In this document: positions 19,837 to 35,157 of the stretch, in pieces
How the letters are laid out: each line of letters opens with the position of its first letter
How positions within the stretch are numbered: position 1 is the first letter of the stretch
Source of the DNA: Nitrospirota bacterium
GTDB lineage: Bacteria > Nitrospirota > Thermodesulfovibrionia > Thermodesulfovibrionales > JdFR-88
DNA: 38,558 nucleotides
NCBI GenBank assembly: GCA_021813405.1
Contig: JAKAKS010000011.1
Location: 1-38,558 of the forward strand
Direction: 5' to 3'
The notes under the pieces: model-generated
Database searches by the model: none
The model's input: the letters and a program-made list of their open reading frames with translations, nothing else
Told to the model about the DNA's origin: nothing
Program-made: the position numbers and the translations under genes

Positions 19837-20028
19837 CGATATTTGAATTGCGCCCCTTTGAGGTTTTTAATTTTTTTGTGACCTGTGTTACAGCGCTCCT
19901 GTCCGTTTTCCAGCCATTATTTCCATAACCTTTAAAGTGAGTTAGAATAATTAAACGGGCCTTTGGTGGAAACGCCTGGAAGTGCCCGGAGGGTTTTTCA
20001 AGAAACTTTGGATAAGGAGGACGTGCGC

Positions 20029-20550
20029 TTGAAGCTTAAAACGATTTTAATCACGGCTGCAGCTGCGGCTGTGCTGTGCCTGGTTCCGGCGGCTGGCTAC
20101 GCCGGGGTTAATTTGAATATAGGTATAGGGTTGGGTGTTCCCGTGGCGCCCCCTCCGCCTCCGCCGCCCGTGGTGATGCCCGGCCCGCCGGAAATGGCAG
20201 TGATACCCGGCCTCTCCGTTTACTTTGTGCCGGGCGTACAGGCCGATATCTTTTTTTACGGAGGGTCATGGTACAGGCGTGACCGCGGCTACTGGTACAG
20301 GTCCGGTTATTACAACGGCCCATGGAGGTTTGTGCCGCGTGGCCATGTGCCCAGGGTTTTCTACCGCTTGCCAAGAGACTGGCGCAGGGACCGTGGCGAG
20401 AGGTATGAATACGGTGATTTCAGAAGGCACTGGAGAGAATGGGACAGGGAAAGGGAGCACGGAGACTGGCATGACCGTGGCGAACACCGCGGCTGGGACC
20501 ACGACCACGGCCATGGCCGGTGGGGGCACGGCAGGGGCGATGACGATTAG
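20029..20550 (+). CDS. Exported protein with Pro-rich and Arg/His/Asp-rich regions (173 aa)
   Basis: The TTG start at 20029, 8 nt after AAGGAGG, gives a signal peptide (KTILITAAAAAVLCLVPAAG, then YAG). The mature protein has a VNLNIGIGLGVPV segment, a run of seven prolines (VAPPPPPPPVVMPGPP), then an aromatic-rich core (GGSWYRRDRGYWYRSGYYNG, PWRFVPRGHVPRVFYRLP) and an extremely charged tail rich in Arg, Asp, His, Gly and Trp (HGDWHDRGEHRGWDHDHGHG and onward). The core resembles exported YXWRxGxYxGPW-type proteins of unknown function seen in several Gram-negative lineages. The His/Asp-rich tail could bind metal. It ends before two hairpins, the second a strong terminator. Confidence 0.75.
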   Translation: MKLKTILITAAAAAVLCLVPAAGYAGVNLNIGIGLGVPVAPPPPPPPVVMPGPPEMAVIPGLSVYFVPGVQADIFFYGGSWYRRDRGYWYRSGYYNGPWRFVPRGHVPRVFYRLPRDWRRDRGERYEYGDFRRHWREWDREREHGDWHDRGEHRGWDHDHGHGRWGHGRGDDD

Positions 20551-23021: not shown

Positions 23022-24815
23022 ATGCGGATTGAAACGCGGCGCAAGACGGTTTACGCACTGGTACTGGTCCTTTTAGCCGCCCTGGTTTATATAAACTCCC
23101 TCGGGAACGGGTTTGTATATGACGACCCCAACCAGCTTGTTAAAAATCCCTGGATAAGAGATTTCAGAAACATCCCTGCCGTCCTTACCCATGAGGTGTG
23201 GGGCTTCCAGCCCGCCGTAAAGTCCAGCTTTTACAGGCCTACGATGCACCTTCTTAATATGCTTATATATCCTTTTTCCGGACTGAACCCGCTGGGCTAT
23301 CATATTGCCAACCTGCTGCTGCACTCGGCAAACAGCCTGCTTGTTTTCCTGCTGGCCATGGCTCTGTTCGAAGATATTGTTGCCGCGCTTGCAGCCGGGG
23401 TGCTGTTTGCCGTGCATCCTGTGCATACGGAGGCGGTGGACTGGATTGGCGGCTCCCCGGACCTGATGCTTGTCTTTTTTTCTCTTGTGGCCATGCTGCT
23501 GTTTGCGGCAAGGAAAAACCCTGTGCTGCAGGGCGTTTTTTTTCTTCTGGCCATGCTGAGCAAGGAACCCGCCGTTACACTGGTTTTTATACTGCCTGTT
23601 TTTGCATGCGCGCTTGATGCAGGTGATGCCGGGCCGGTTTTAAAAGCACGAAACGCACCGCCGTGGTATTTCCGGTTTCTGCCGGTTGTTGCCGCCGCCC
23701 TGGTTTATTTTGCAATGCGGATATACGCGCTGGGCGGTTTGACCACCGGCAACAATCATCCGGAGATGGGCCTTCTTTTTGAGGCGGCAAACGCGCCGTA
23801 TCTTTTTGCCAGATATATGGCCAAGCTTGTTTTGCCGCTGAACCTGAACCTTGCCTACAATTTCCATCCGGTGCGCTCTATGCTTTCCCCGCGCGCCATT
23901 GCGGGGTTTTTGGCCGCCTTTGCGTTTGCCGGGCTTCTTGCGATTTCATTCAGGAAAAACAGGAAGGTGTTTTTTGCGTTATGTCTGTTAGCGGTGCCGG
24001 TTCTGCCGGCGCTTTATTTTGCGCCGCTTGGGGACCTGGTGTTCGGGGAAAGATACCTGTATCTGCCCTCGGTGGGCTTTGCATTGGCGGCAGGATGGGC
24101 GTTTGAATATTTCCATAAAAAGGCAAAACACGTTTCCGTTGCCGCAGGGATTATGGTTGCGGCGATTTTTGCGTTTGGCACCATGCACAGGGCGCCTGTG
24201 TGGAAGAGCAATTTCTCTCTGTGGAGCGATGCAGTGAAAAAGTCCCCCACGGGGTACGTGCCGCTGGTGAACCTGGGGGTGGAGTACGGGAATATGGGAG
24301 ATTCGGGCCAGGCCATAGCGCTGTTTGAAAAGGCAGCATCCATCAACCCGGCCCGCTATGAGGCTTACCTGCTGGAAGGGCAGACTTACCAGATGATTAA
24401 AAAATATACCCTTGCCGGGAAAGCTTACCAAATGGCATTGAAGGCCGACCCCAGGCATTCGGAAACCTATCTGCGGCTTGCCATGATGTACCGCGCGGCC
24501 GGGGAGCCTGAGAAGGCCATACAGACATACCTGGCGCTGGTTTCGGTATATCCGGATTCCATGGCGGCATACACGGGCCTGGGGCAACTCTATTTTTCCG
24601 CCCGGGATTATAAAAACGCAGCGGAAGCCCTCGCGAACATTGCCAGGCTGGCCCCAGGCAGCCCCGATGCGCATTATAACCTGGCGCAGGCGCTCCGGCT
24701 GGAAGGGGACATGAAATCCGCTGCGCAGCAGTACCAGGCGGCCATCAGGCTGGATCCCGGTTTCACAAAGGCGTATGCCGGGCTTGGTGAAGCTATGCGC
24801 GGCGGCGGGAAATAA
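23022..24815 (+). CDS. TMTC-like membrane glycosyltransferase with C-terminal TPRs, copy 1 (597 aa)
   Basis: Residues 1-400 form a multispan membrane region of about ten helices. The first outside loop has GNGFVYDDPNQLV with Asp34-Asp35, the acidic pair expected in GT-C glycosyltransferases. Next come SSFYRPTMHLLNMLIYPFSG, HPVHTEAVDWIGGSPDLM, MLSKEPAVTLVF and FGERYLYLPSVGFALAAG, and then the APVWKSNFSLWSDAV entry into the soluble part. Residues from about 405 to the end are five TPR units. This architecture matches eukaryotic TMTC proteins (O-mannosyltransferases) and bacterial relatives of unproven function. The likely role is transfer of a lipid-linked sugar to exported acceptors, with the TPRs binding a partner. 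It is the first of seven consecutive large membrane-protein genes. Confidence 0.8.
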   Translation: MRIETRRKTVYALVLVLLAALVYINSLGNGFVYDDPNQLVKNPWIRDFRNIPAVLTHEVWGFQPAVKSSFYRPTMHLLNMLIYPFSGLNPLGYHIANLLLHSANSLLVFLLAMALFEDIVAALAAGVLFAVHPVHTEAVDWIGGSPDLMLVFFSLVAMLLFAARKNPVLQGVFFLLAMLSKEPAVTLVFILPVFACALDAGDAGPVLKARNAPPWYFRFLPVVAAALVYFAMRIYALGGLTTGNNHPEMGLLFEAANAPYLFARYMAKLVLPLNLNLAYNFHPVRSMLSPRAIAGFLAAFAFAGLLAISFRKNRKVFFALCLLAVPVLPALYFAPLGDLVFGERYLYLPSVGFALAAGWAFEYFHKKAKHVSVAAGIMVAAIFAFGTMHRAPVWKSNFSLWSDAVKKSPTGYVPLVNLGVEYGNMGDSGQAIALFEKAASINPARYEAYLLEGQTYQMIKKYTLAGKAYQMALKADPRHSETYLRLAMMYRAAGEPEKAIQTYLALVSVYPDSMAAYTGLGQLYFSARDYKNAAEALANIARLAPGSPDAHYNLAQALRLEGDMKSAAQQYQAAIRLDPGFTKAYAGLGEAMRGGGK

Positions 24816-24827
24816 AGGCAAGTGAGT

Positions 24828-24833
24828 TATAAT
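24828..24833 (+). promoter_or_regulatory. TATAAT box 5 nt before the second TMTC-like gene
   Basis: A perfect TATAAT, then TTTTT, then the ATG at 24839. The spacing is the same 5 nt as at 23011-23016. No Shine-Dalgarno sequence. It lies in the 23-bp gap after copy 1. Confidence 0.5.
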
Positions 24834-24838
24834 TTTTT

Positions 24839-26602
24839 ATGCTGACCGGCAAAAGATCACGGGAAGCCATATACGCCCTGCTTGTGGGCCTTCTGGCAGC
24901 CTCTGTTTATCTGAACTCGCTTGGCAACGGGTTTGTTTATGACGACTTTGCCCAGATTGTGCAGAACCAGTGGCTTGGGGATTTCAGGAACATTCCCGCT
25001 TTTTTCAGGACCGAGGTGTGGGGTTTCCATCCCGGCCTGATGTCCAATTATTACAGACCTGTTATGCACCTGCTTAATATGGTAGCGTACCATCTGTTTG
25101 GCCCCGGCCCGATGGGCTTTCATATGGCAAACCTGCTTTTGCATTCGGCCAATTCCGCGCTTGTTTTCCTGCTGGCACTTTTCATCTTCGGGGAGGCGGG
25201 CCTTAACCCACGGTTTTCGGGGGACCCGGTGACAGCCGCGCTTGCCGCCGGGATTATCTTTGCCGTCCATCCGGCCCATACGGAGGCGGTGGACTGGATT
25301 GGCGGCTCACCGGACCTGCTGATGGCTTTTTTCTCGCTCTGCGCGCTTGTTTTCCTTGTAAAAAGAAAATCGCCCTGGCTTCAGGGGTTATTTTTCCTGC
25401 TTGCAATGCTGAGCAAGGAACCGGCGGTGATGCTCCTGATTGCGGTGCCCTTATTCGATATCATTTCAGGCAGGGGGCAGCATTCCGCAAAGGCCGCCCC
25501 GCTTTGGAAAAGATATGCGCCGCTGGCTGTTGCCATTATCATCTATTTTGGCCTGCGGATTAATGCGCTTGGGGGCCTTGTGGCCTTTAAGGAGCCAAAC
25601 CCGCCGGTAGGGGGCCTGCTTCCGGCTGCGCTTTCAGCGCCGTTTCTTTTTGCAAGGTACATGGCAAAGATGCTGCTGCCGGCAGGGCTGAACGTGGCCT
25701 ATGATTTCCATCCGGTGCTCTCTTTTTCCGACCCAAGGGCGATTGAAGGGTGTGCCGCTATCCTGATATTTGCCGCAATTCTGGTCTTTTCGGCTTATAA
25801 GGACAAACGGATATTCTTCGGGCTTTGCCTTCTTGTTTTGCCCCTGCTGCCAGTATTTTATTTCCCGGCGCTGGGCAGGGTTGCCTTCGGTGAGCGGTAT
25901 CTCTATTTCCCGCTTGCCGGGTTTTCGCTGGCGGCTGGCGGGCTGTTTGCCGCCGCTGCCTCAAACAGCAAGGCAAAAAATACCGTGCTGACAGCCGGCG
26001 TTCTGGTTGCAGCGCTCCTTTCAATTGCCACTGTTTACAGGAACCCGGTATGGAAGAGCGACCTTACTCTCTGGGGTGATGCGGCAATGAAATCCCCTGG
26101 CGGTTACGTGCCGCTTGTAAACCTGGGGGTGGCAGAGTATAAGGCGGGCAATATACAGAAGGCGATAACGCTTTACCAGAAAGCGGCCATGCTGGACCCT
26201 TCGGACTATGAGGCCTTCTTTTACCTTGGCAAGGCGTATCTTGCCGCAAAAGAAAACGTGTTTGCCGAGGGATCATTCCTTCAGGCAACCAGGGCCAACC
26301 CCCGGTTTGCAGAAAGCTATTATTATCTGGGGGTCACATTCTGGGAAGAAGGGGAGCCGGGGCTAGCCAAGGAGGCCTATAAGGCGGCAATAGCAAGGGA
26401 CCCGCTTTATCATGAGGCGTACAACAACCTGGGGGGCATATATTTTGCCGAAGGGAGTTACTTAAAAGCGGCCGGGGCGTACAGGATGGCGCTTCAGCCC
26501 GGCCCGGAAGAGGCCGCCGTACGGTTCAACCTGGCCCTTGCGCTTAAGAAGGCCCGGGAGAAAAAAAAGGCCGGGACATTCCCTGATGCGGATAAAAACT
26601 AA
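24839..26602 (+). CDS. TMTC-like membrane glycosyltransferase with C-terminal TPRs, copy 2 (587 aa)
   Basis: A clear tandem paralogue of copy 1. It keeps GNGFVYDDFAQIV with Asp35-Asp36, the NYYRPVMHLLNMVAYHLFG loop, HPAHTEAVDWIGGSPDLL, MLSKEPAVMLLI, FGERYLYFPLAGFSLAAG and NPVWKSDLTLWGDAAMKSPG. About ten membrane helices are followed by four or five TPRs (EAYNNLGGIYFAEGSYLKAA is one unit) and a short Lys-rich tail. The DNA of the HTEAVDWIGGS segment is identical to copy 1 over about 32 bases, pointing to recent duplication or gene conversion. The start at 24839 follows a TATAAT box by 5 nt. The gene end overlaps copy 3 by 17 bp. Confidence 0.8.
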   Translation: MLTGKRSREAIYALLVGLLAASVYLNSLGNGFVYDDFAQIVQNQWLGDFRNIPAFFRTEVWGFHPGLMSNYYRPVMHLLNMVAYHLFGPGPMGFHMANLLLHSANSALVFLLALFIFGEAGLNPRFSGDPVTAALAAGIIFAVHPAHTEAVDWIGGSPDLLMAFFSLCALVFLVKRKSPWLQGLFFLLAMLSKEPAVMLLIAVPLFDIISGRGQHSAKAAPLWKRYAPLAVAIIIYFGLRINALGGLVAFKEPNPPVGGLLPAALSAPFLFARYMAKMLLPAGLNVAYDFHPVLSFSDPRAIEGCAAILIFAAILVFSAYKDKRIFFGLCLLVLPLLPVFYFPALGRVAFGERYLYFPLAGFSLAAGGLFAAAASNSKAKNTVLTAGVLVAALLSIATVYRNPVWKSDLTLWGDAAMKSPGGYVPLVNLGVAEYKAGNIQKAITLYQKAAMLDPSDYEAFFYLGKAYLAAKENVFAEGSFLQATRANPRFAESYYYLGVTFWEEGEPGLAKEAYKAAIARDPLYHEAYNNLGGIYFAEGSYLKAAGAYRMALQPGPEEAAVRFNLALALKKAREKKKAGTFPDADKN

Positions 26603-28391
26603 GGGCGGCGCCACCGGCGCATTCAATCCGGTTTACGCCTTGGCTATATTTATTTTTGCTTTTATTCTTTATTCCAATTCCATCAACAACTGCTTTGTCC
26701 GTGACGACTCCGCTCAGATTTTAAATAACCCCTGGATAAAGAGTTTTTCCCATGCCGGGCGGGTTTTTCTGTCCAACGTGTGGGCCTTTACCGGAAGGCC
26801 ATCCAATTATTACCGTCCTCTCATGTATTTTGGCTATATGATCGTATACAGCCTCTTCGGGCTGGATGCGCGTGGGTACCATCTGCTGAGCGTGCTCCTG
26901 CATTCCATAAATTCCGTTCTGGTTTATGCCGCCGCCTGCCTGGTGATTAGAAGATATAACGACGGCGGGCCAGTTCCCTCATCCGGGCCTATGGGAACTG
27001 GTTTCCCGGGGGCTGGCCCCATTGCGGCAGGGCTTGTGTTTGCCGCGCAGCCGGTGCATGTGGAGGCCGTTGCCTGGGCGGGGGGCTACCCGGACCTGCT
27101 GGCCGCCATGTTTTCGCTTGCGGCCTTCCTGGTGTTTGCCGCCTATTCCGGCAGAGGATATCTGAAATATTTTGCGCTGGAAATGGTCCTTCTGCTTGGG
27201 GCATTTTTCAGCAAGGAGCCCGCGGTTACAATCCCGTTTGTTTTCGTGGCTTACGACCTGCTTTTAAGCGGCAGGGGAAGGGGATTTGTTGCAAGGTACG
27301 CGCCTCTTTTTTGCGCCCTTGCCATTTATATGGGTATGCGCACTTACGCCATATTCTACGGGCCCGCAGGGTGGCTTACGGCCAATTTCCGGGCAGAGGT
27401 GGCCGGGCACCTTGGTATAGCTGGAATTAATTATCATCCGGAGATTGGGCCGGTAACAGCTTTTCTGACCGGCGTCAGTTTTTTTGCCGGGTATCTTTAT
27501 AAGATGCTTGTGCCCATCCGCCTGAATCCGGCCTACGGTTATCAGCCTGTCAGTTCCGTGAATGCGGCGTTCGTGGTCCCCGTATTGGCCGCTGCGCTTT
27601 TTGCCTTTTTGCTTTACGTTTCATTCCGGCGGGACAGGAGGTATTTTTTTGCCGGGCTTTTCTTCTTATTGCCGCTTGCTCCGTCTTTATACATATCGCA
27701 CGGGCTTGGGCAGTTCCTGTTTGCGGAGAGGTATCTTTACCTGCCGTCCATAGGCTTTGCGCTTGCCGCGGGGCTTGTTCTGGACGGGGTTTGTAACGGC
27801 GGAAGCGGCGTCCTGAAAAAGGTTGTTCCAGGATTGTTTGCTGTATTGCTGGTCTTTTACACGGCATCGAGTTTTGAGAGAAATCACGTATGGAAGGACG
27901 ATTTTTCGGTATGGTCCGACGCGGCGCTTAAAACCCCGGATAACGGTTTTGTGCAATACAACTACGGAGTGGAATTGGAGCACAAGGGGTTGCTGGACGG
28001 GGCCATAGCAGCGTTCCGCAAGGCCGTTGCGCTTCAGCCGGATTACATGAAGGCTTATTCCGAGCTGGGCGGCACTTTGATGAAAAAAGGCGAAAACGAG
28101 GCCGCGGTGCAGGTATTCCAGACTGCGCTCTCCATAAACGATGCATCTCCCGATACGCCCGGCATCCATTACCGGCTTGCCAGGGCATACCTGGCGCTTG
28201 GGAACCCGGATGCCGCTATAGGGGAATACAGGGCCGTCCTTGCCGTAATGCCAAACGCCGGTATAGCCAGGGAACTTGCAGGCCTTCTTTACCGCACAGG
28301 AAGCCCCTCCGCGGCTGAAGATATGTTTAAGAAGGCCCAGATGATGGACCCCGCACATGCCGGCCCCACTGGCTGCGGGGATTTCAAGTAG
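26586..28391 (+). CDS. TMTC-like membrane glycosyltransferase with C-terminal TPRs, copy 3 (601 aa)
   Basis: The ATG at 26586 gives MRIKTKGG, similar to the MRIETRRK start of copy 1; an upstream in-frame start lies inside copy 2. Features: Asp40-Asp41 in FVRDDSAQIL, SNYYRPLMYFGYMIVYSLFG, QPVHVEAVAWAGGYPDLLAA (the usual HPxHTE is altered to QPVHVE), FFSKEPAVTIPFVF, FAERYLYLPSIGFALAAG and NHVWKDDFSVWSDAALKTPD. About ten membrane helices precede four TPRs. A Gly/Pro-rich insert (GGPVPSSGPMGTGFPGAGP) lies in a loop and is absent from copies 1 and 2. It overlaps copy 2 by 17 bp and is probably translated from the same message. Confidence 0.8.
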   Translation: MRIKTKGGATGAFNPVYALAIFIFAFILYSNSINNCFVRDDSAQILNNPWIKSFSHAGRVFLSNVWAFTGRPSNYYRPLMYFGYMIVYSLFGLDARGYHLLSVLLHSINSVLVYAAACLVIRRYNDGGPVPSSGPMGTGFPGAGPIAAGLVFAAQPVHVEAVAWAGGYPDLLAAMFSLAAFLVFAAYSGRGYLKYFALEMVLLLGAFFSKEPAVTIPFVFVAYDLLLSGRGRGFVARYAPLFCALAIYMGMRTYAIFYGPAGWLTANFRAEVAGHLGIAGINYHPEIGPVTAFLTGVSFFAGYLYKMLVPIRLNPAYGYQPVSSVNAAFVVPVLAAALFAFLLYVSFRRDRRYFFAGLFFLLPLAPSLYISHGLGQFLFAERYLYLPSIGFALAAGLVLDGVCNGGSGVLKKVVPGLFAVLLVFYTASSFERNHVWKDDFSVWSDAALKTPDNGFVQYNYGVELEHKGLLDGAIAAFRKAVALQPDYMKAYSELGGTLMKKGENEAAVQVFQTALSINDASPDTPGIHYRLARAYLALGNPDAAIGEYRAVLAVMPNAGIARELAGLLYRTGSPSAAEDMFKKAQMMDPAHAGPTGCGDFK

Positions 28392-28541
28392 AGCTTCCGG
28401 GGCGTGTTCGCCGGGTGTTGGCGATGATAGCAATCAGCTTTTTCGCATTGCTGACTGGCAGGCACAAGTCGGTTAAAAAACGGAAGCCCGGCCCTTCGCG
28501 CTTGGCGGGCCTTCAGGAACATATTTTATAATATCCGGCAT
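28392..28541. other. Short gap before the duplicated membrane-protein pair
   Basis: No gene. It holds a weak GCCCG/CGGGC hairpin (about 28488-28510) and a TATAAT box (28527-28532) that ends 9 nt before the next ATG, without a Shine-Dalgarno sequence. Confidence 0.5.
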
Positions 28542-30188
28542 ATGGGGACTTTTAAAAAACTGCTGGTTGCCGCGCTTATTCTGGCCGTTGCCTTTGGGCT
28601 GTGGACAAGCTTTCATTACACCTTTAAGGCTTATGTATTAGAAGGCGATTCAGCCGTTTTTCCGATGCTCTGGCGCGGGTTGCAGGAGCACGGCTTCGCT
28701 TTTTTTAGGACATGGCATTTTACGCAGGACAACTGGCTGCTTTCCCCCGCTCCTTTTGTATTTCTTGTCTACTATATTTTTGGCGTTACCGGATACACAG
28801 TGCTGGGTTTGGGATGGGCGTTCTTCGTGATCAACGCCGTATTGCTTGCCGTTTTAACGAGGTTCCTGGCTGGCAGATGGTCCATGGCCGCGCTTGTAAT
28901 ATTGTGCCTGGGGTTGTTTGCAAGCGAGAAGGCGGTGGAAAACGGATTTTTATCCTACATTATTTGCCACAACACGTCGATGGCGTGGGCTTTCGTTGCT
29001 GTAATGGCTGCGGCTTACGGAATGGAAAAACGCAGCGGTCTGTCCGCGTTCGCGCTGGCCTGCATAATTTTTATCGCAGGCGTTTCGGACCCATGGTTTC
29101 ACGCGGCCTGCACATTGCCGCTTTTGTTTGTACTGTGCTTAATATATCTGAGGGGCAAGGAACACCGCAGACAGTCACTAATCATGTTGCTGGGGGTGGC
29201 GGGCGGATGGGCGCTTGCTTATACAAGAGGCCTGGGGCTGCTGTCTTTCCTTCCAAGGGGCGGTTTTCAATTCATATCCACATGGGAACAACTGCGGTCC
29301 AATGCCCACCAGCTTTTACAGGCAACCGGCACGTTCTTCTCATTGTCCGAAGTGTTTGAATGGAACCACATGGCGGGAGCTGTTTTCATTGCAATCAGTA
29401 TCTGCATCGCCTTTGAAACTTTCCGCTGGGCTGTGCGGAATATGAAAAGACTGCCTGTGCGCCAGGCTGTGGCTGCCGGGTTTTTCCCGGCGTCGGTTGT
29501 CATGATGTCCGCAGCTTATCTGGCTTATGATTTGCATGAAAATAATTTCATATACAGATATTTGATAAATATTTACTACGGCCTGATTGCCTTTGCGGCT
29601 TTTGCGATGGCATGGCGCTGGAAGCAGCTGCCGGACCTTTTCCGCGCGATGGCGTGCGCCTGGGTGGTTATCTTCCTGGCGGCCGGGGTGGCAAGCGATC
29701 CGGCGGCCTGGGAAAAGGATATCAACGTAAATGATCAGGGGGCGTCGGCGCTGGCGGGTTTTCTGGAACAAAACGGGCTGAATTACGGGTATGCGGATTA
29801 CTGGGCGGTCCCGGCCGATACGATAACCTGGGCCAGCGGCTACCGGGAGATCGTGCGCCCCATAGGCATGAAATTCGACCTCTCAGCGCGCCCGGAACCA
29901 CGCCTGTTCTTTGTCCCATGGCCGTACGAGACTTCCAGTACGTGGTACAAACCTGGGGATTATAAGGACCAGCGCAGGTTTTTTCTGGTGCTGAATGCCG
30001 CCTGGCCGGGCCATGCATTAAACAAGGTAAGCACCGTCCCCCGTTTTGATTTCTATACCATGGTATCGGCTGCGGAAAGGCAGTTTGGCACCCCGGAGAA
30101 AACCCTTCAGTTTGCGAACTGCGTGGTCCTGGTGTGGGACCATCCCGTCTTGCAGGCCCTGACCGGGGCGGAAACGCCCGGGCAATAA
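28542..30188 (+). CDS. Polytopic membrane protein, putative GT-C glycosyltransferase, pair member 1 (548 aa)
   Basis: A hydrophobic protein with about eleven membrane helices and a soluble C-terminal part from about residue 400. After the first helix comes YVLEGDSAVFPMLWRG; the acidic Glu-Gly-Asp sits where GT-C enzymes keep their catalytic Asp. HFTQDNWLLSPAPFVFLVYY, GVSDPWFHAACTLPLLFVLC and LAYTRGLGLLSFLPRGG follow. The C-terminal domain contains FLEQNGLNYGYADYWAVPAD and SGYREIVRPIG, phrases that recur in bacterial GT39-like membrane proteins. No TPRs. It is about 50-60% identical by eye to the next gene. The precise family is unknown to me; a role in transferring lipid-linked sugars is inferred from fold and context. 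Confidence 0.7.
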   Translation: MGTFKKLLVAALILAVAFGLWTSFHYTFKAYVLEGDSAVFPMLWRGLQEHGFAFFRTWHFTQDNWLLSPAPFVFLVYYIFGVTGYTVLGLGWAFFVINAVLLAVLTRFLAGRWSMAALVILCLGLFASEKAVENGFLSYIICHNTSMAWAFVAVMAAAYGMEKRSGLSAFALACIIFIAGVSDPWFHAACTLPLLFVLCLIYLRGKEHRRQSLIMLLGVAGGWALAYTRGLGLLSFLPRGGFQFISTWEQLRSNAHQLLQATGTFFSLSEVFEWNHMAGAVFIAISICIAFETFRWAVRNMKRLPVRQAVAAGFFPASVVMMSAAYLAYDLHENNFIYRYLINIYYGLIAFAAFAMAWRWKQLPDLFRAMACAWVVIFLAAGVASDPAAWEKDINVNDQGASALAGFLEQNGLNYGYADYWAVPADTITWASGYREIVRPIGMKFDLSARPEPRLFFVPWPYETSSTWYKPGDYKDQRRFFLVLNAAWPGHALNKVSTVPRFDFYTMVSAAERQFGTPEKTLQFANCVVLVWDHPVLQALTGAETPGQ

Positions 30189-30196
30189 GCAAAAAG

Positions 30197-31837
30197 ATGA
30201 GAGCTTTAAAACAACTTCTGACAGTAACGCTTCTTCTGGCCGTTTGCGCCGGGCTATGGATAAGTTTCCATTACACCTTCGCGGCTTACTCGCTGGACGG
30301 CGACACGGCAGTTTTCCCGATGCTATGGCATGGCTGGAGGGAGCACGGCTTCGCTTTTTTCAGGACATGGCGTTTCACCCAGGACAATTGGCTGCTTTCT
30401 CCCGCTCCTTTTGTATTTTTTATCTACTATATTTTTGGCGTTACCGGATACACAGTGCTGGGTTTGGGATGGGTGTTCTTCGTGATCAATGCAGTATTGC
30501 TTGCCGTTTTAATCAGGTTTTTGTCCGGCAGATGGTCCGCGGCATCGCTTGTTGCCCTGTGCCTGGGGTTGTTTGCAAGCCAAAGCGCGATAAAGGACGG
30601 ATATCTGGCCTATGTCGTTTGCCATAACTCTTCGATGGCCTGGGCGTTTATTGCGTTCATTTCCGCGGCTTACGCGATAGAGAAGCACAACAAGATAAAT
30701 GCTTTTACATTGGGCGCGATAGTATTTCTGGCCGGCGTTTCGGACCCCTGGTTTAACGCGGCCTGCACATTGCCCATTGTAATGGTTCTGCTGGCGCTCT
30801 GCATAAAAAAACGGCAATACCGCCGGCCGGCGCTGAACCTGCTTCTGGGGACGATGACCGGATGGGCGCTTGCCTATACAAGGGGGCTGGGGCTGTTGTC
30901 TTTTTCCCCAAAAAACAGTTTTCATCTTATATCCTCCTGGGGCCAGTTTATGGCCAATGCCCATACATACCTGGCGGCACTTGGAGTGTTCTTTCCGGTT
31001 TTGCGGACATGGGCGTGGAACCACATGGCGGGGGCGGTCTTTGCCATTATCAGCCTTTTCCTGGCTTTCCATCTGGTCCGCCATCTGGCGGGGCATGCAA
31101 TAACGCTGAGTGCCAGGCAGGCGATGATTACCGGTTTTTTCCTGGTTTCAATTCTTGTCATGTCTGCCGCTTTTTTGATTTTGGCCGTGGACAGAGGCGA
31201 TTACAGGTATCTGGTAAACATTTACTATGGTCTGCTTGCTCTCGGGGTATTTATATTTGCCTGGCAATGGAGGGCCATGCCTGTCTTTTCCCGATGGGCT
31301 GTATGCCTTTGGGTATTTATCTTTATTGCGGCGGGCGCGGCAAGCGGTCCGGCGGCCTGGGAAAACCGGGTGGAAATAAACGATAACGGGGCGCTTGCGC
31401 TGGCGGGGTTTCTGGAACAAAACGACCTCCATTACGGGTACGGGGATTACTGGGCGGCCCCTGCAAACACCATAAGCTGGATAAGCGGGTACAGGGTTGT
31501 TGTGCGCCCCGTAAGCCTGGAATATGACCCGGGGGCAAACCCCGCAATGCCTTTGTTTTTCATGCCCAGGCGGCATGAAATATCCGCTGCGTGGTTTGGG
31601 CCTGGGAACTCCGCTAACCAGCGGCGGTTTTTCCTGATACTTGGCATGAACGGCCGGCCTTTTGAGGTGGTAAGCAAGGAGAACGTGATAGGCCAGTTCA
31701 ATTATTACAGCTTGCTGGCATTAGCTGAAGAACAGTTTGGCAGGCCGGATGAAACCCTTGCGTTTGAAAACCATATTATCCTGGTGTGGGACCATCCCAT
31801 TGTGCAGGCCCTGCCGCAGGCTGCCAGTGCCGGGTGA
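30197..31837 (+). CDS. Polytopic membrane protein, putative GT-C glycosyltransferase, pair member 2 (546 aa)
   Basis: A tandem duplicate of the preceding gene. The ATG at 30197 lines up with its start (MRALKQLLTVTLLLAVCAGL), 8 bp after the upstream stop; a longer frame runs back into that gene. It has YSLDGDTAVFPMLWHGWREH (Asp-Gly-Asp in the first loop), RFTQDNWLLSPAPFVFFIYY, GVSDPWFNAACTLPIVMVLL and LAYTRGLGLLSFSPKNSFH, then the C-terminal FLEQNDLHYGYGDYWAAPAN and VWDHPIVQALP. A 50-bp DNA block (30424-30473) is identical to the first copy, while most of the rest differs. It ends with a TGATG overlap into the next gene. Confidence 0.7.
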   Translation: MRALKQLLTVTLLLAVCAGLWISFHYTFAAYSLDGDTAVFPMLWHGWREHGFAFFRTWRFTQDNWLLSPAPFVFFIYYIFGVTGYTVLGLGWVFFVINAVLLAVLIRFLSGRWSAASLVALCLGLFASQSAIKDGYLAYVVCHNSSMAWAFIAFISAAYAIEKHNKINAFTLGAIVFLAGVSDPWFNAACTLPIVMVLLALCIKKRQYRRPALNLLLGTMTGWALAYTRGLGLLSFSPKNSFHLISSWGQFMANAHTYLAALGVFFPVLRTWAWNHMAGAVFAIISLFLAFHLVRHLAGHAITLSARQAMITGFFLVSILVMSAAFLILAVDRGDYRYLVNIYYGLLALGVFIFAWQWRAMPVFSRWAVCLWVFIFIAAGAASGPAAWENRVEINDNGALALAGFLEQNDLHYGYGDYWAAPANTISWISGYRVVVRPVSLEYDPGANPAMPLFFMPRRHEISAAWFGPGNSANQRRFFLILGMNGRPFEVVSKENVIGQFNYYSLLALAEEQFGRPDETLAFENHIILVWDHPIVQALPQAASAG

Positions 31838-33519
31838 TGGATGCGAAAAGAAAAATGAATACCATGCCTGTTTCCTCCAGAAAATGGATTTTTATTATCA
31901 TGTTTGCGATTGCCCAGGCGGTAATTGCTGCATGGCCCTTATTTCATAGCGGATGGGTGGCCACCTGGGACGGGTACATGCATATCCAGAGAGCGCAAGC
32001 CGTGTCCTATGCGGTAAAACACGGCGATTTTTATCCCCGCTGGACAACAGCAGCAGCCGCAGGCAAAGGGTCGCCATTTCTTAATTTCTACTCCCCGGGG
32101 TTTTACCTGGCGGCGGGCTATCTGCACGCCCTGGGAATCCAGCTTGTCCCGGCTGTGAAAATTGTATGCATGCTCATGCTTTTTGCCGGCTGGCTGGGGA
32201 TGTTCCTGTGGGCCAAAGGGCATTTCGATATACCCGGGGCGCTTATTGCCGCCACGGTATTCATGTTTGTCCCGTATCATTTCCACGATTTATATCAACG
32301 CGGGTCTTTGCCGGAACTTGCCGCAATAAACCTTATGCCATTTCTGTTTTACGGCATTGATCTTATGTGCGCTCAAACAATCCAGTATATGCCCGGCATA
32401 ATTGTGACTGCCCTGGCAACGGCCTTGATAACGTTAACGCATAACCTGATGGGGTTCATGATCGCGCCTTTTGCTGCTCTGTATATAGGGTGGCTGGCAT
32501 TTTCTTCCGGAACTCCGGTAAAAATATTCATCAGGTCCGCCGTTGGTGTGGCCCTTGGCATGGGGTTGTCCGCTTTTTATTGGCTGCCGGTGCTCACAGA
32601 AATAGGCTACCTGGCCAGATTCAAGGAAGCTACCCTGGATGGTTATCCGTATTACAAGCTTTTCATGTCCGCCGCCGGATGGTTTAAAGCCGGATGGACT
32701 CAGCCCCCTAAAGATTTGTTTGATGACCTTCAGATCGGATACGCGGTTCTGGGGTTTGATGCCTTGGCGCTTGCGGGCCTGTTTGCTGTGCCGCGGCAGA
32801 AAAGGGGATTTGGCCTGATCGTACCCTTGCTGGGGGTTCTTGCCCTTTTCATGACGATACCGCTTTCAGCGGCTTTATACAAATACTTAACCCCGCTCCA
32901 GTATGTGTTGTTCCCGTGGAGCTATATGGGCATAGCAACACTGTTTTTTTCCGCGCTGGCAGGGTATTCCGCAAGCGTGATACCGGCAGGCAGGATGATG
33001 TTTTTGCCGGCTGCGCTTGTCTGCCTTGCGCTTGCGCTTTGCGTGTTTGTTTCCAGCCCGCAAAGAACTGCGTATGGAAGGCTGGCAATAAAAGACGACA
33101 TCCCCAATATCATGGGGATAGCGCCAGCAGACGAATTCCGGCCCAGGTGGGAGACCGTGCCTGTAACTGCAAAACGATACGATTTTCTTTACACCACCGG
33201 CTCCAGTACCAAGATTAAGGAGGCTAGCGCAAACGGCACTGAGATCCGTGTGCTTGCAGATGCCGCCGGGCCGGCCAACCTGATAATCACGCAATTCTAC
33301 TTCCCCGGCTGGAGGCTCCGGATAGACGGCCGCGGCTTGCCTGTTTCCACCACGCCGGAGGGGTTTATCACATTTGCCATACCACCCGGCCTGCACTCTA
33401 TAACGCTTTGGTTTGGCACTACGTGGCCAAGGGTTACGGGATGGGTGATATCGGCTGTTGCGGTGCTGGCTATTCTAGCGGGCACGTTAAAAAAAGCCGG
33501 GCGGTTAAAGGCCTGTTGA
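31837..33519 (+). CDS. Polytopic membrane protein, YfhO/PTPS-related GT-C-like (560 aa)
   Basis: The start at 31837 overlaps the upstream stop (TGATG). About ten membrane helices. The first loop has GWVATWDGYMHIQRAQAVSY, in which Trp-Asp-Gly-x-x-H is the acidic first-loop motif of this GT-C branch. It continues with GDFYPRWTTAAAAGKGSPFL, NFYSPGFYLAAGYL and PYHFHDLYQRGSLPELAAIN, all recognisable in bacterial 6-pyruvoyl-tetrahydropterin-synthase-related membrane proteins. The C-terminal 150 residues form a beta-rich outside domain (ITQFYFPGWRLRIDGRGLPV, FITFAIPPGLHSITLWF), as in YfhO-like proteins, followed by a last membrane helix. Bacterial relatives are thought to glycosylate lipoteichoic acid or other envelope polymers. 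Confidence 0.72.
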   Translation: MDAKRKMNTMPVSSRKWIFIIMFAIAQAVIAAWPLFHSGWVATWDGYMHIQRAQAVSYAVKHGDFYPRWTTAAAAGKGSPFLNFYSPGFYLAAGYLHALGIQLVPAVKIVCMLMLFAGWLGMFLWAKGHFDIPGALIAATVFMFVPYHFHDLYQRGSLPELAAINLMPFLFYGIDLMCAQTIQYMPGIIVTALATALITLTHNLMGFMIAPFAALYIGWLAFSSGTPVKIFIRSAVGVALGMGLSAFYWLPVLTEIGYLARFKEATLDGYPYYKLFMSAAGWFKAGWTQPPKDLFDDLQIGYAVLGFDALALAGLFAVPRQKRGFGLIVPLLGVLALFMTIPLSAALYKYLTPLQYVLFPWSYMGIATLFFSALAGYSASVIPAGRMMFLPAALVCLALALCVFVSSPQRTAYGRLAIKDDIPNIMGIAPADEFRPRWETVPVTAKRYDFLYTTGSSTKIKEASANGTEIRVLADAAGPANLIITQFYFPGWRLRIDGRGLPVSTTPEGFITFAIPPGLHSITLWFGTTWPRVTGWVISAVAVLAILAGTLKKAGRLKAC

Positions 33520-33528
33520 AAAAACATT

Positions 33529-35157
33529 ATGGAAAAATGCATGATGCCGCCGCGCGCTGAAGGTAATCTGATTTCAAAAGTAAATGCACTGCCAGTGCTT
33601 TTGATCCTGCTGGTTTCATTTGCGGTTTATGCAAACATTTTTTCAAACGGGTTTGTGGGCGACGATGCCGGGATGGTGGTTGGCAACCCGTCTGTAAGGA
33701 GTTTTGCCGCATTTACAAGGAGTTTCGCCAATATCCCGGCGGTGTTTGAGCGCCCTTCAGCGGGGGCATATTACAGGCCCGTGTCCTACGGATTGGCATT
33801 CATGGTCATTTATTCGATATTCGGGCTTAAGGCCTGGGCCTTTCACCTGGCAAACGTGGCGCTGCACGCGGCAAATGCCGTGCTGGTATATCTGCTGGGC
33901 TTGCTGCTGATTGGCAGAAGAAGATTCGCCCTGGTTGCCGCGCTTTTGTTTGCAGTTCATCCGGTTAATACCGATGCCGTGGACCTGGCGTCAGCTATCT
34001 CGGAACCCATGTATTCGTTTTTCTTCCTGGCCTGCATTGTCCTGTTTGCAGAAGAAAGAATGCCGTGGCTTCAGGGTGCATTATGTCTCCTTTCGGCATT
34101 GTCCAAGGAGCCGGGCGTGATGATACCCGCCGTATTGATCTCATATGGCTTGTGCATTGGCGGGCGCTTTTCATGGCGGAAATACGTGCCATTTCTGCCA
34201 GCGCTGGCGATTTATTTTCTGCTCCGGTGGAACGCGTTTCGAGTGATAACATTTGTAAGCTCCAGCTCCAGTTTGAATTTATGGCAGCTCATTCTTAATT
34301 CATTCCCCCTTTTTGCCAAATATATGGGCAAGCTGGCGTTCCCCGCCGTGTTGAATGCGGCTTATACATTCCATCCTGTTTCATCGCCTTTTGAATTCAA
34401 GGTTGCTGTTTCCCTGCTGGTGACGGCGTGTGTTGCCGGATTGATGGCGCTTTTCTGGAAGAAAAACCGGAGGGCCTTTTTCTGCTGCATTTTGGCGCTT
34501 GCCCCTCTGCTGCCGGCGTTTTATGTGCTGAGGCTTCCTTTCTTTACAGTGTTTGCCGAAAGGTATCTGTACCTGAGCACCGCCGGGTTCGCTTTGCTTG
34601 TATCCATTGGCTTAGAGAGATTGAGTTGCCTAAAAAATGCCATCTGGAAAAAAGCCGCGCCCGTGGTGGCGGCCATGGTTGCCGTACTTGCTGTCACCGC
34701 AGGGGCCGCTATTACTGTAAAGAGAAACCCTGTATGGAAAAGCAACGAGACTTTGTGGGGCGATACGGCCGCGAAGTCCCCCGATAACCCGGTACCTTAC
34801 ACATATCTTGGATTTGTGGCCAATGACAAAGGGCATGCCCGCGAGGCCGTTTATTTCTGCGATAAGGCATTGAGGATAAAACCTACTTACGATTCACTGG
34901 TGTGCCTTGGCATAGCTTACAATATGCTTGGCCGTTCCGGTATCGCAAAGGCGGCCTTTTCAGACGCAGCCAGTTTAAACCCTGGCGCTGCCGAGCCGCA
35001 TTACAGGCTTGCTTTGCTTTATTTGAAAAAAGGCGATCTTGCAGGCTTTCAGCGCCAGTTCGGGCTGGCTAGGAAGCTTAACCCGGGTGCGGCGGGGTTG
35101 TATGCCAGCCTGGCCCAAAAAGAGGCGGCCGGAAGCGCCGCGCGGGTGAAGAAATGA
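33529..35157 (+). CDS. TMTC-like membrane glycosyltransferase with C-terminal TPRs, copy 4, divergent (542 aa)
   Basis: The fourth TMTC-like protein, separated from copies 1-3 by three other membrane proteins. It keeps SNGFVGDDAGMVV (Asp45-Asp46), GAYYRPVSYGLAFMVIYSIF, ALSKEPGVMIPAVL, FAERYLYLSTAGFALLVS and NPVWKSNETLWGDTAAKSPD. The second conserved loop is altered: HPVNTDAVDLASAISEPMYS replaces HPxHTEAVxW and the DLL end. About ten membrane helices are followed by only about three TPRs, so it is shorter than copies 1-3. It starts 9 bp after the upstream gene and no good Shine-Dalgarno sequence is seen. Loss of the loop residues could mean a different sugar or acceptor. Confidence 0.78.
   Translation: MEKCMMPPRAEGNLISKVNALPVLLILLVSFAVYANIFSNGFVGDDAGMVVGNPSVRSFAAFTRSFANIPAVFERPSAGAYYRPVSYGLAFMVIYSIFGLKAWAFHLANVALHAANAVLVYLLGLLLIGRRRFALVAALLFAVHPVNTDAVDLASAISEPMYSFFFLACIVLFAEERMPWLQGALCLLSALSKEPGVMIPAVLISYGLCIGGRFSWRKYVPFLPALAIYFLLRWNAFRVITFVSSSSSLNLWQLILNSFPLFAKYMGKLAFPAVLNAAYTFHPVSSPFEFKVAVSLLVTACVAGLMALFWKKNRRAFFCCILALAPLLPAFYVLRLPFFTVFAERYLYLSTAGFALLVSIGLERLSCLKNAIWKKAAPVVAAMVAVLAVTAGAAITVKRNPVWKSNETLWGDTAAKSPDNPVPYTYLGFVANDKGHAREAVYFCDKALRIKPTYDSLVCLGIAYNMLGRSGIAKAAFSDAASLNPGAAEPHYRLALLYLKKGDLAGFQRQFGLARKLNPGAAGLYASLAQKEAAGSAARVKK

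Follow-up and report, generated by a model that had tools for sequence, protein, structure and literature searches.

We analysed a 38,558-nucleotide stretch of DNA (the window) from a Nitrospirota bacterium (GenBank assembly GCA_021813405.1, here the source genome; contig JAKAKS010000011.1), which carries at positions 23022 to 35157 an array of seven genes for membrane proteins of 542 to 617 amino acids. A preliminary description made from the sequence alone had reported seven consecutive same-strand genes for multispan proteins with an acidic motif in the first outside loop, and each part of this held: the open reading frames (ORFs) and their coordinates were confirmed, the proteins have 8 to 12 hydrophobic segments each, and an acidic residue is present in the first loop of all seven, as DD (T1, T2, T3, and T7), as G-D (LEGD in G4 and LDGD in G5), or as WDG (Y6). 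The genes and the evidence for each are listed below (TPR, tetratricopeptide repeat; AF2, AlphaFold2; TM, transmembrane helix).

23022 to 24815, + strand: T1, TMTC-like GT-C membrane domain (residues 1 to ~400) and C-terminal TPRs (~395 to 597); ORF, Pfam TPR, AF2 model, structure matches, motifs.
24839 to 26602, + strand: T2, TMTC-like GT-C and TPR protein, 49% identical to T1; ORF, Pfam, paralogy, motifs.
26586 to 28391, + strand: T3, TMTC-like GT-C and TPR protein, likely ATG at 26586, 17-nt overlap with T2; ORF, Pfam, paralogy, motifs.
28542 to 30188, + strand: G4, GT-C-like multispan membrane protein outside any Pfam or NCBIfam family; profile match to the TMTC-like family over TM2 to TM6.
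30197 to 31837, + strand: G5, paralogue of G4 (57% identity), likely ATG at 30197.
31837 to 33519, + strand: Y6, PTPS_related/YfhO-type membrane protein (GT-C clan), likely ATG at 31837, overlapping the G5 stop; PF10131, PF09586.
33529 to 35157, + strand: T7, TMTC-like GT-C protein with a short TPR tail; ORF, Pfam, paralogy, motifs.

T1, T2, T3, and T7 are paralogues that share 32 to 49% identity over most of their length (E values down to 1e-174), and this likeness, like that between G4 and G5, is far beyond chance; Y6 has no paralogue within the array. All four TMTC-like proteins have significant TPR tails (Pfam TPR E values of 1e-25 to 4e-7), with one to two repeats scoring in T7. Given the overlaps of T2 with T3 and of G5 with Y6, and the spacing of the remaining genes (23 bp between T1 and T2, 150 bp between T3 and G4, 8 bp between G4 and G5, and 9 bp between Y6 and T7), the layout suggests two co-transcribed groups, T1 to T3 and G4 to T7. 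Promoter and terminator scans of the window yielded no usable operon boundaries.

Fold and catalytic residues of the TMTC-like proteins

GT-C enzymes generally take their sugar from a lipid-phosphate donor, transfer it on the outer face of the membrane, and depend on an acidic residue in the first loop. We modelled T1 with AF2 from an alignment of 77 relatives (pLDDT 95, pTM 0.92) and compared the model with known structures using VIA-align. Residues ~1 to 424 matched AglB (3waj; Z 20.5, 314 aa, 4.0 Å) and ArnT with undecaprenyl phosphate (5f15; Z 18.4, 326 aa, 4.4 Å), as well as yeast Stt3 (Z ~20), chicken ALG12 (Z 19.1), and Pmt4 and Pmt2 (Z 18), with the GT-C alignments spanning 314 to 337 residues, while the C-terminal remainder matched TPR superhelices. 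These GT-C matches came from VIA-align; the top Foldseek listing for T1 consisted of TPR proteins, and a PDB search with sequence profiles of the membrane part retrieved no GT-C chain. By inspection, the model has 11 membrane helices and a surface helix at residues 251 to 270, which is the arrangement known for TMTC and POMT proteins (PMC6801728), and the TPR tails of the four enzymes would therefore be periplasmic.

Conservation among the 77 relatives is high at D34 (100%), D35 (95%), P73 (100%), K181 (99%), E182 (88%), P329 (97%), R344 (95%), Y347 (94%), and W394 (100%). T1 thus combines the two marks of a GT-C(A) enzyme, a GT-C membrane fold as modelled and a first-loop acid with conserved Lys/Arg residues for the lipid phosphate (D34/D35, K181, and R344), and homology extends both to T2, T3, and T7. 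Motifs M1 (DD), M4 (KE), M6 (PxxP), and M7 (ERxxY) of the set defined for human TMTCs (PMC7801869, Table 4) are present in 4/4 of these proteins. The structure comparison agrees with the earlier suggestion that these members are GT-C-like. The four had also been described as TMTC-type TPR proteins with shared landmark sequences; the TPR tails and core motifs stood, and the landmarks proved variable in T7 (HPVNTDAV, SKEPGV, and ERYLYLS) and in T3 (QPVHVEAV).

Copy number and phylogeny

The source genome has 19 TMTC-like genes, compared to 0 to 26 per genome in 41 relatives, and at least one strong match was found in 106 of the 163 genomes of the class. Among named relatives, the Nitrospirae metagenome-assembled genome (MAG) DBS2-1.bin64 (G001) is the nearest, and its T1 (L001) is 94% identical. 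One contig of G001 carries mazG, hemW, T1, T2, T3, and a G4-like gene, and another carries a G5-like gene, Y6, T7, and fusA; given this matching gene order, the array is conserved in the genus. Tandem arrays recur elsewhere, in that deltaproteobacterial MAGs have five-gene arrays with an embedded GT2 gene (L007, L010, and L015).

A 204-sequence tree groups the four window T genes with the pairs on source-genome contigs C5 and C31 and with their orthologues in a clade of 15 (support 0.93), which indicates that the array originated through duplication in the genus or in a near ancestor of it. Sequences linked to pilin genes fall mainly in one other clade (14 tips, support 0.96), with separate cases at L119/L204, L123, L126, L013, and L027, and the pilin-link label changes 8 times on the tree compared to 16.6 in shuffles. 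The phylogeny proposed in the preliminary description therefore united the window paralogues and placed them apart from the pilin-linked clade. A further TMTC-like gene of the source genome lies between transposase-like genes and a second TMTC-like fragment (L127, contig C25, 4855 bases).

Pilin genes near TMTC-like genes

The first sightings of pilin genes came from the source genome, where three surround the TMTC-like copy at L123 and where pseudopilin genes and a GT2 gene lie beside the copy at L126. We counted genes within 2 kb of a TMTC-like gene as near and those farther out at the same loci as far. Type IV pilin genes in the source genome numbered 5 in 53 kb near versus 0 in 137 kb far. 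A pilin gene was found within 2 kb at 7 of 20 loci in low-copy genomes (15 genes in 81 kb versus 5 in 226 kb; p=3.5e-6) and at 8 of 33 held-out loci selected by copy number only (11 in 120 kb versus 7 in 266 kb; p=0.007), so that the position beside a pilin gene that is typical of a pilin glycosyltransferase is taken at these loci of relatives and not in the window. Pooled over Nitrospirota, the counts were 32 in 326 kb versus 12 in 780 kb (p=1.8e-9), where the linkage p-values treat related loci as independent and ignore shared ancestry. At L204 the TMTC-like gene lies between three pilin genes, and at source-genome locus C44 three pilin genes accompany one TMTC-like gene together with the sole TMEM260-like gene of the genome. 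TMEM260-like proteins (PF11028) are protein O-mannosyltransferases and likewise GT-C proteins, but the TMTC-like family is separate from them and the window has no TMEM260-like gene. The search for conserved neighbours that the preliminary description had proposed thus uncovered enrichment of pilin genes and, as set out below, of GT2 genes.

A very large protein (up to ~1,480 aa) that starts with GxDAGSVSVK is encoded near pilin/TMTC-like loci in six genomes, 119 to 2535 bp from a pilin gene (L123:11859-16064, L204:2503-6933, L209:3355-7611, L222:15179-19001, L254:9839-14200, and L270:12426-16001; two copies end at the stretch edge). Judging by eye, we take it to resemble a CoA-dehydratase activase of the BadF type.

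Multihaem cytochromes were considered as general acceptors and rejected given that their genes were not enriched (7 near versus 11 far, p=0.26). Such a gene does adjoin a TMTC-like gene in the source genome (L122 and L131) and at L206, L277, and L278. At L122:941-12868 (contig C31), two TMTC-like genes lie amid genes for a doubled-CXXCH protein, two NHL beta-propeller proteins, and a peptidylprolyl isomerase, and this is possibly an extracellular cytochrome locus, which we record as a lead only.

Candidate sugar donors

The preliminary description had placed donor synthesis outside the array, which fits the presence of 26 GT2 genes in the source genome: two have the two-TM C-terminus of DPM/GtrB-type lipid-phosphate-sugar synthases, and two abut TMTC-like genes. 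GT2 genes were also enriched near TMTC-like genes, both in pooled Nitrospirota (16 near versus 6 far, p=2.9e-5) and at loci from a GTDB scan, mostly of other phyla (13 in 293 kb versus 2 in 745 kb, p=3.5e-6). The neighbouring GT2s belong to PF00535 and resemble ArnC, PpgS, AglJ, and PgfS, all below curated cut-offs.

Some pilin loci encode a UbiA protein that passes the model for decaprenyl-phosphate phosphoribosyltransferase (DPPR synthase; L211 and L207), and DPPR-synthase-like UbiA genes lie within 2 kb of pilin-linked TMTC-like genes at L207, L211, L212, and L219. This enzyme catalyses the first step of a lipid-pentofuranose pathway (PMC11127046) that has been proposed to supply the sugar for Pseudomonas type IV pilin glycosylation, and its proximity suggests that pilins are pentofuranosylated in the species of these four loci. 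A similar UbiA-looking gene lies just past 2 kb at L218. The source genome has no DPPR synthase above cut-off, which makes an arabinofuranose donor unlikely there, even though pilin-linked relatives carry such a gene nearby, and its own GT2s are the more likely source of donors. The pilin-linked relatives with a DPPR-synthase-like gene are reminiscent of TfpW, the GT-C arabinosyltransferase of Pseudomonas pilin, whose gene lies beside that of its pilin and which uses a lipid-phosphate pentofuranose. The likeness is drawn from role and context, and the window array differs in having no adjoining pilin gene and a genome with no DPPR synthase.

G4, G5, and Y6

Neither G4 nor G5 matched Pfam or NCBIfam up to E=1, but a profile comparison (hhalign) with the TMTC-like family gave a probability of 93 (E 3.5e-7, 129 columns, helices 2 to 6), consistent with distant homology. 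The AF2 model of G4 was poor (pLDDT 59) because relatives are too few; the family is almost restricted to the genus, and within the order, matches of any strength occur in 6 of 121 genomes, four of them weak. G4-like copies are more numerous in G001, where they lie on short, fragmented contigs, than in the source genome. Away from the array, the source genome has a third G4-like gene at C53:26908-28551 (L143), with an orthologue on contig C153 of G001.

Y6 exceeds the Pfam cut-offs of PF10131 (30.4 bits; cut-off 26.4) and PF09586 (30.4 bits; cut-off 28.5) with partial coverage, and both PTPS_related and YfhO have been tied to GT-C enzymes, by the TMTC paper (PMC7801869) or through the NCBI PgfM models. 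Its C-terminus weakly matches PgfM1 and PgfM2, YfhO-type proteins of streptococcal protein glycosylation (E 1e-5 and 1e-3), at scores far below the curated cut-offs (1400/1500 bits). The proposal that all seven proteins are of GT-C type is supported for the four TMTC-like members; Y6 matches families of the GT-C clan, and G4 and G5 show distant homology only. G4, G5, and Y6 may act as glycosyltransferases.

Flanking genes

The array lies between mazG-hemW upstream and what we read from the ORFs as rpsL-rpsG-fusA downstream. PADLOC returned no match, Rfam and tRNA searches had no match in the window, and the plasmid search gave TPR matches only, among the matches listed. The small exported protein encoded at positions 19963 to 20550 contains a run of prolines and has a tail rich in His, Arg, and Gly.

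Discussion

The most likely role of the seven membrane enzymes is to glycosylate molecules beyond the inner membrane. We consider the array to be a tandem GT-C array of periplasmic glycosyltransferases that use lipid-phosphate sugars, probably on exported proteins, and give this reading a probability of roughly 0.55. It builds on the observations that the array contains paralogues, that its TMTC-like members have a GT-C fold and the catalytic motifs, that the genome has 19 copies, and that the family is linked to pilins and lipid-sugar synthases. In the mechanism we propose, tandem amplification would have produced a set of GT-C glycosyltransferases in the inner membrane. Cytoplasmic GT2 synthases encoded elsewhere would make a polyprenyl-phosphate sugar, the carrier would then be flipped, and the acidic first-loop residues of each enzyme would effect transfer in the periplasm, where the TPR tail of the four TMTC-like enzymes probably serves to hold the acceptor. 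Judged by the pilin-linked relatives, the most likely acceptors are exported proteins such as pilins, pseudopilins, and other surface proteins. The frequent occurrence of relatives next to pilus genes points to surface fibres as substrates of some of the enzymes.

Several points weigh against this reading. Housekeeping genes flank the window array, no pilin, GT2, or sugar gene adjoins it, and its members fall outside the pilin-linked clade; an exported protein as its acceptor is therefore argued from relatives. A pilin neighbour was found at only 1 of 18 loci in high-copy genomes (G025), the linkage tests count related loci as independent, and the G4 model is poor. Enzymatic activity, periplasmic topology, the sugar, and the array's acceptor are inferences. 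The earlier idea that each enzyme handles its own acceptor or sugar found no support at the array, where neither acceptor nor donor genes lie alongside. A broader proposal, which we put forward tentatively, is that this Nitrospirota class runs a multi-paralogue system of extracytoplasmic protein glycosylation in which up to some two dozen TMTC-like enzymes per genome would each be dedicated, through periplasmic TPRs, to particular exported proteins (pilins, pseudopilins, and perhaps cytochromes), with the window array, including the undescribed G4/G5 family, as the largest mixed cluster in the genome.

The preliminary description had left the choice between protein O-glycosylation and an envelope-glycan system. 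The second would have the array decorate O antigen or exopolysaccharide in the periplasm, in the manner of Gtr/GT136 enzymes, with the TPRs binding a polymer-assembly partner. YfhO/PTPS-type proteins such as Y6 are frequent in polymer loci, which counts in its favour. Some TMTC-like genes also adjoin ABC polysaccharide exporters (L147, L216, L268, and L272), and GT-C enzymes with lipid-phosphate donors are commonly so used in three-component systems (PMC11127046). However, exporter genes were not enriched near TMTC-like genes in pooled Nitrospirota (Wzt, 3 near versus 2 far; Wzm, 2 versus 4), whereas pilins were strongly enriched, and the window array has no polysaccharide genes inside or alongside. 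The family-wide pilin link thus favours protein acceptors, and we regard envelope glycans as an unlikely but serious alternative.

A less probable alternative is that the TMTC-like proteins are strict equivalents of animal TMTC1-4 (CAZy GT105, cadherin O-mannosyltransferases) and transfer mannose to protein from polyprenyl-phosphate-mannose. The architecture is shared, 11 membrane helices of a GT-C domain followed by a C-terminal TPR domain, as are M1, M4, M6, M7, and the YRP of M2 (SSFYRP, SNYYRP, and AGAYYRP), and some bacterial relatives pass the DUF1736 model (PF08409; 6 of 80, including planctomycete L070 at 60.3 bits and gemmatimonad L067 at 34.6 bits). However, DUF1736 had no match across the source genome, the DW of M5 (TM7-TM8 loop) was not found in T1, T2, T3, or T7, and these four lack the HK of M2 (SHKSYRP). 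We therefore rejected strict GT105 membership, and with it the identification as TMTCs in the preliminary description; on their motifs, the window proteins are best placed as TMTC-like, a branch neighbouring the TMTCs, from which the tandem, multi-copy arrangement also sets them apart. Nothing in the evidence is specific to mannose, and the DPPR synthase beside some pilin-linked relatives points to pentofuranose donors there. It is similarly doubtful that the amplified genes are mostly redundant or encode non-catalytic proteins that serve pili or other machines as scaffolds or in assembly, as might be argued from the up to 26 dispersed copies per genome that have no fixed partners and from PIG-U, a known non-enzymatic GT-C relative (PMC7801869), given that near-invariant catalytic and phosphate-binding residues in 77 diverse relatives would not be expected after loss of catalysis.

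Full-length bacterial TMTC homologues of like architecture had already been mentioned by Eisenhaber et al. 2021 (e.g., AMJ42_05695, uncharacterised; PMC7801869), without copy number, context, or acceptor. Our literature search, whose coverage excluded many subscription papers, found no paper that links TMTC proteins to pili or gives bacterial TMTCs a function. What is new here is the copy number of bacterial TMTC-like genes (19, and up to 26 in relatives) and their linkage to pilin and GT2 genes. Bacterial TMTC homologues have been known as sequences only, and linkage to pilins and lipid-sugar synthases offers them a testable role, which bears on what TPR-bearing GT-C enzymes may do outside animals. 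Single-copy genomes such as that of L204 would suit the study of acceptor recognition, and such work would be informative about the modification of pili and other surface fibres in environmental Nitrospirota.

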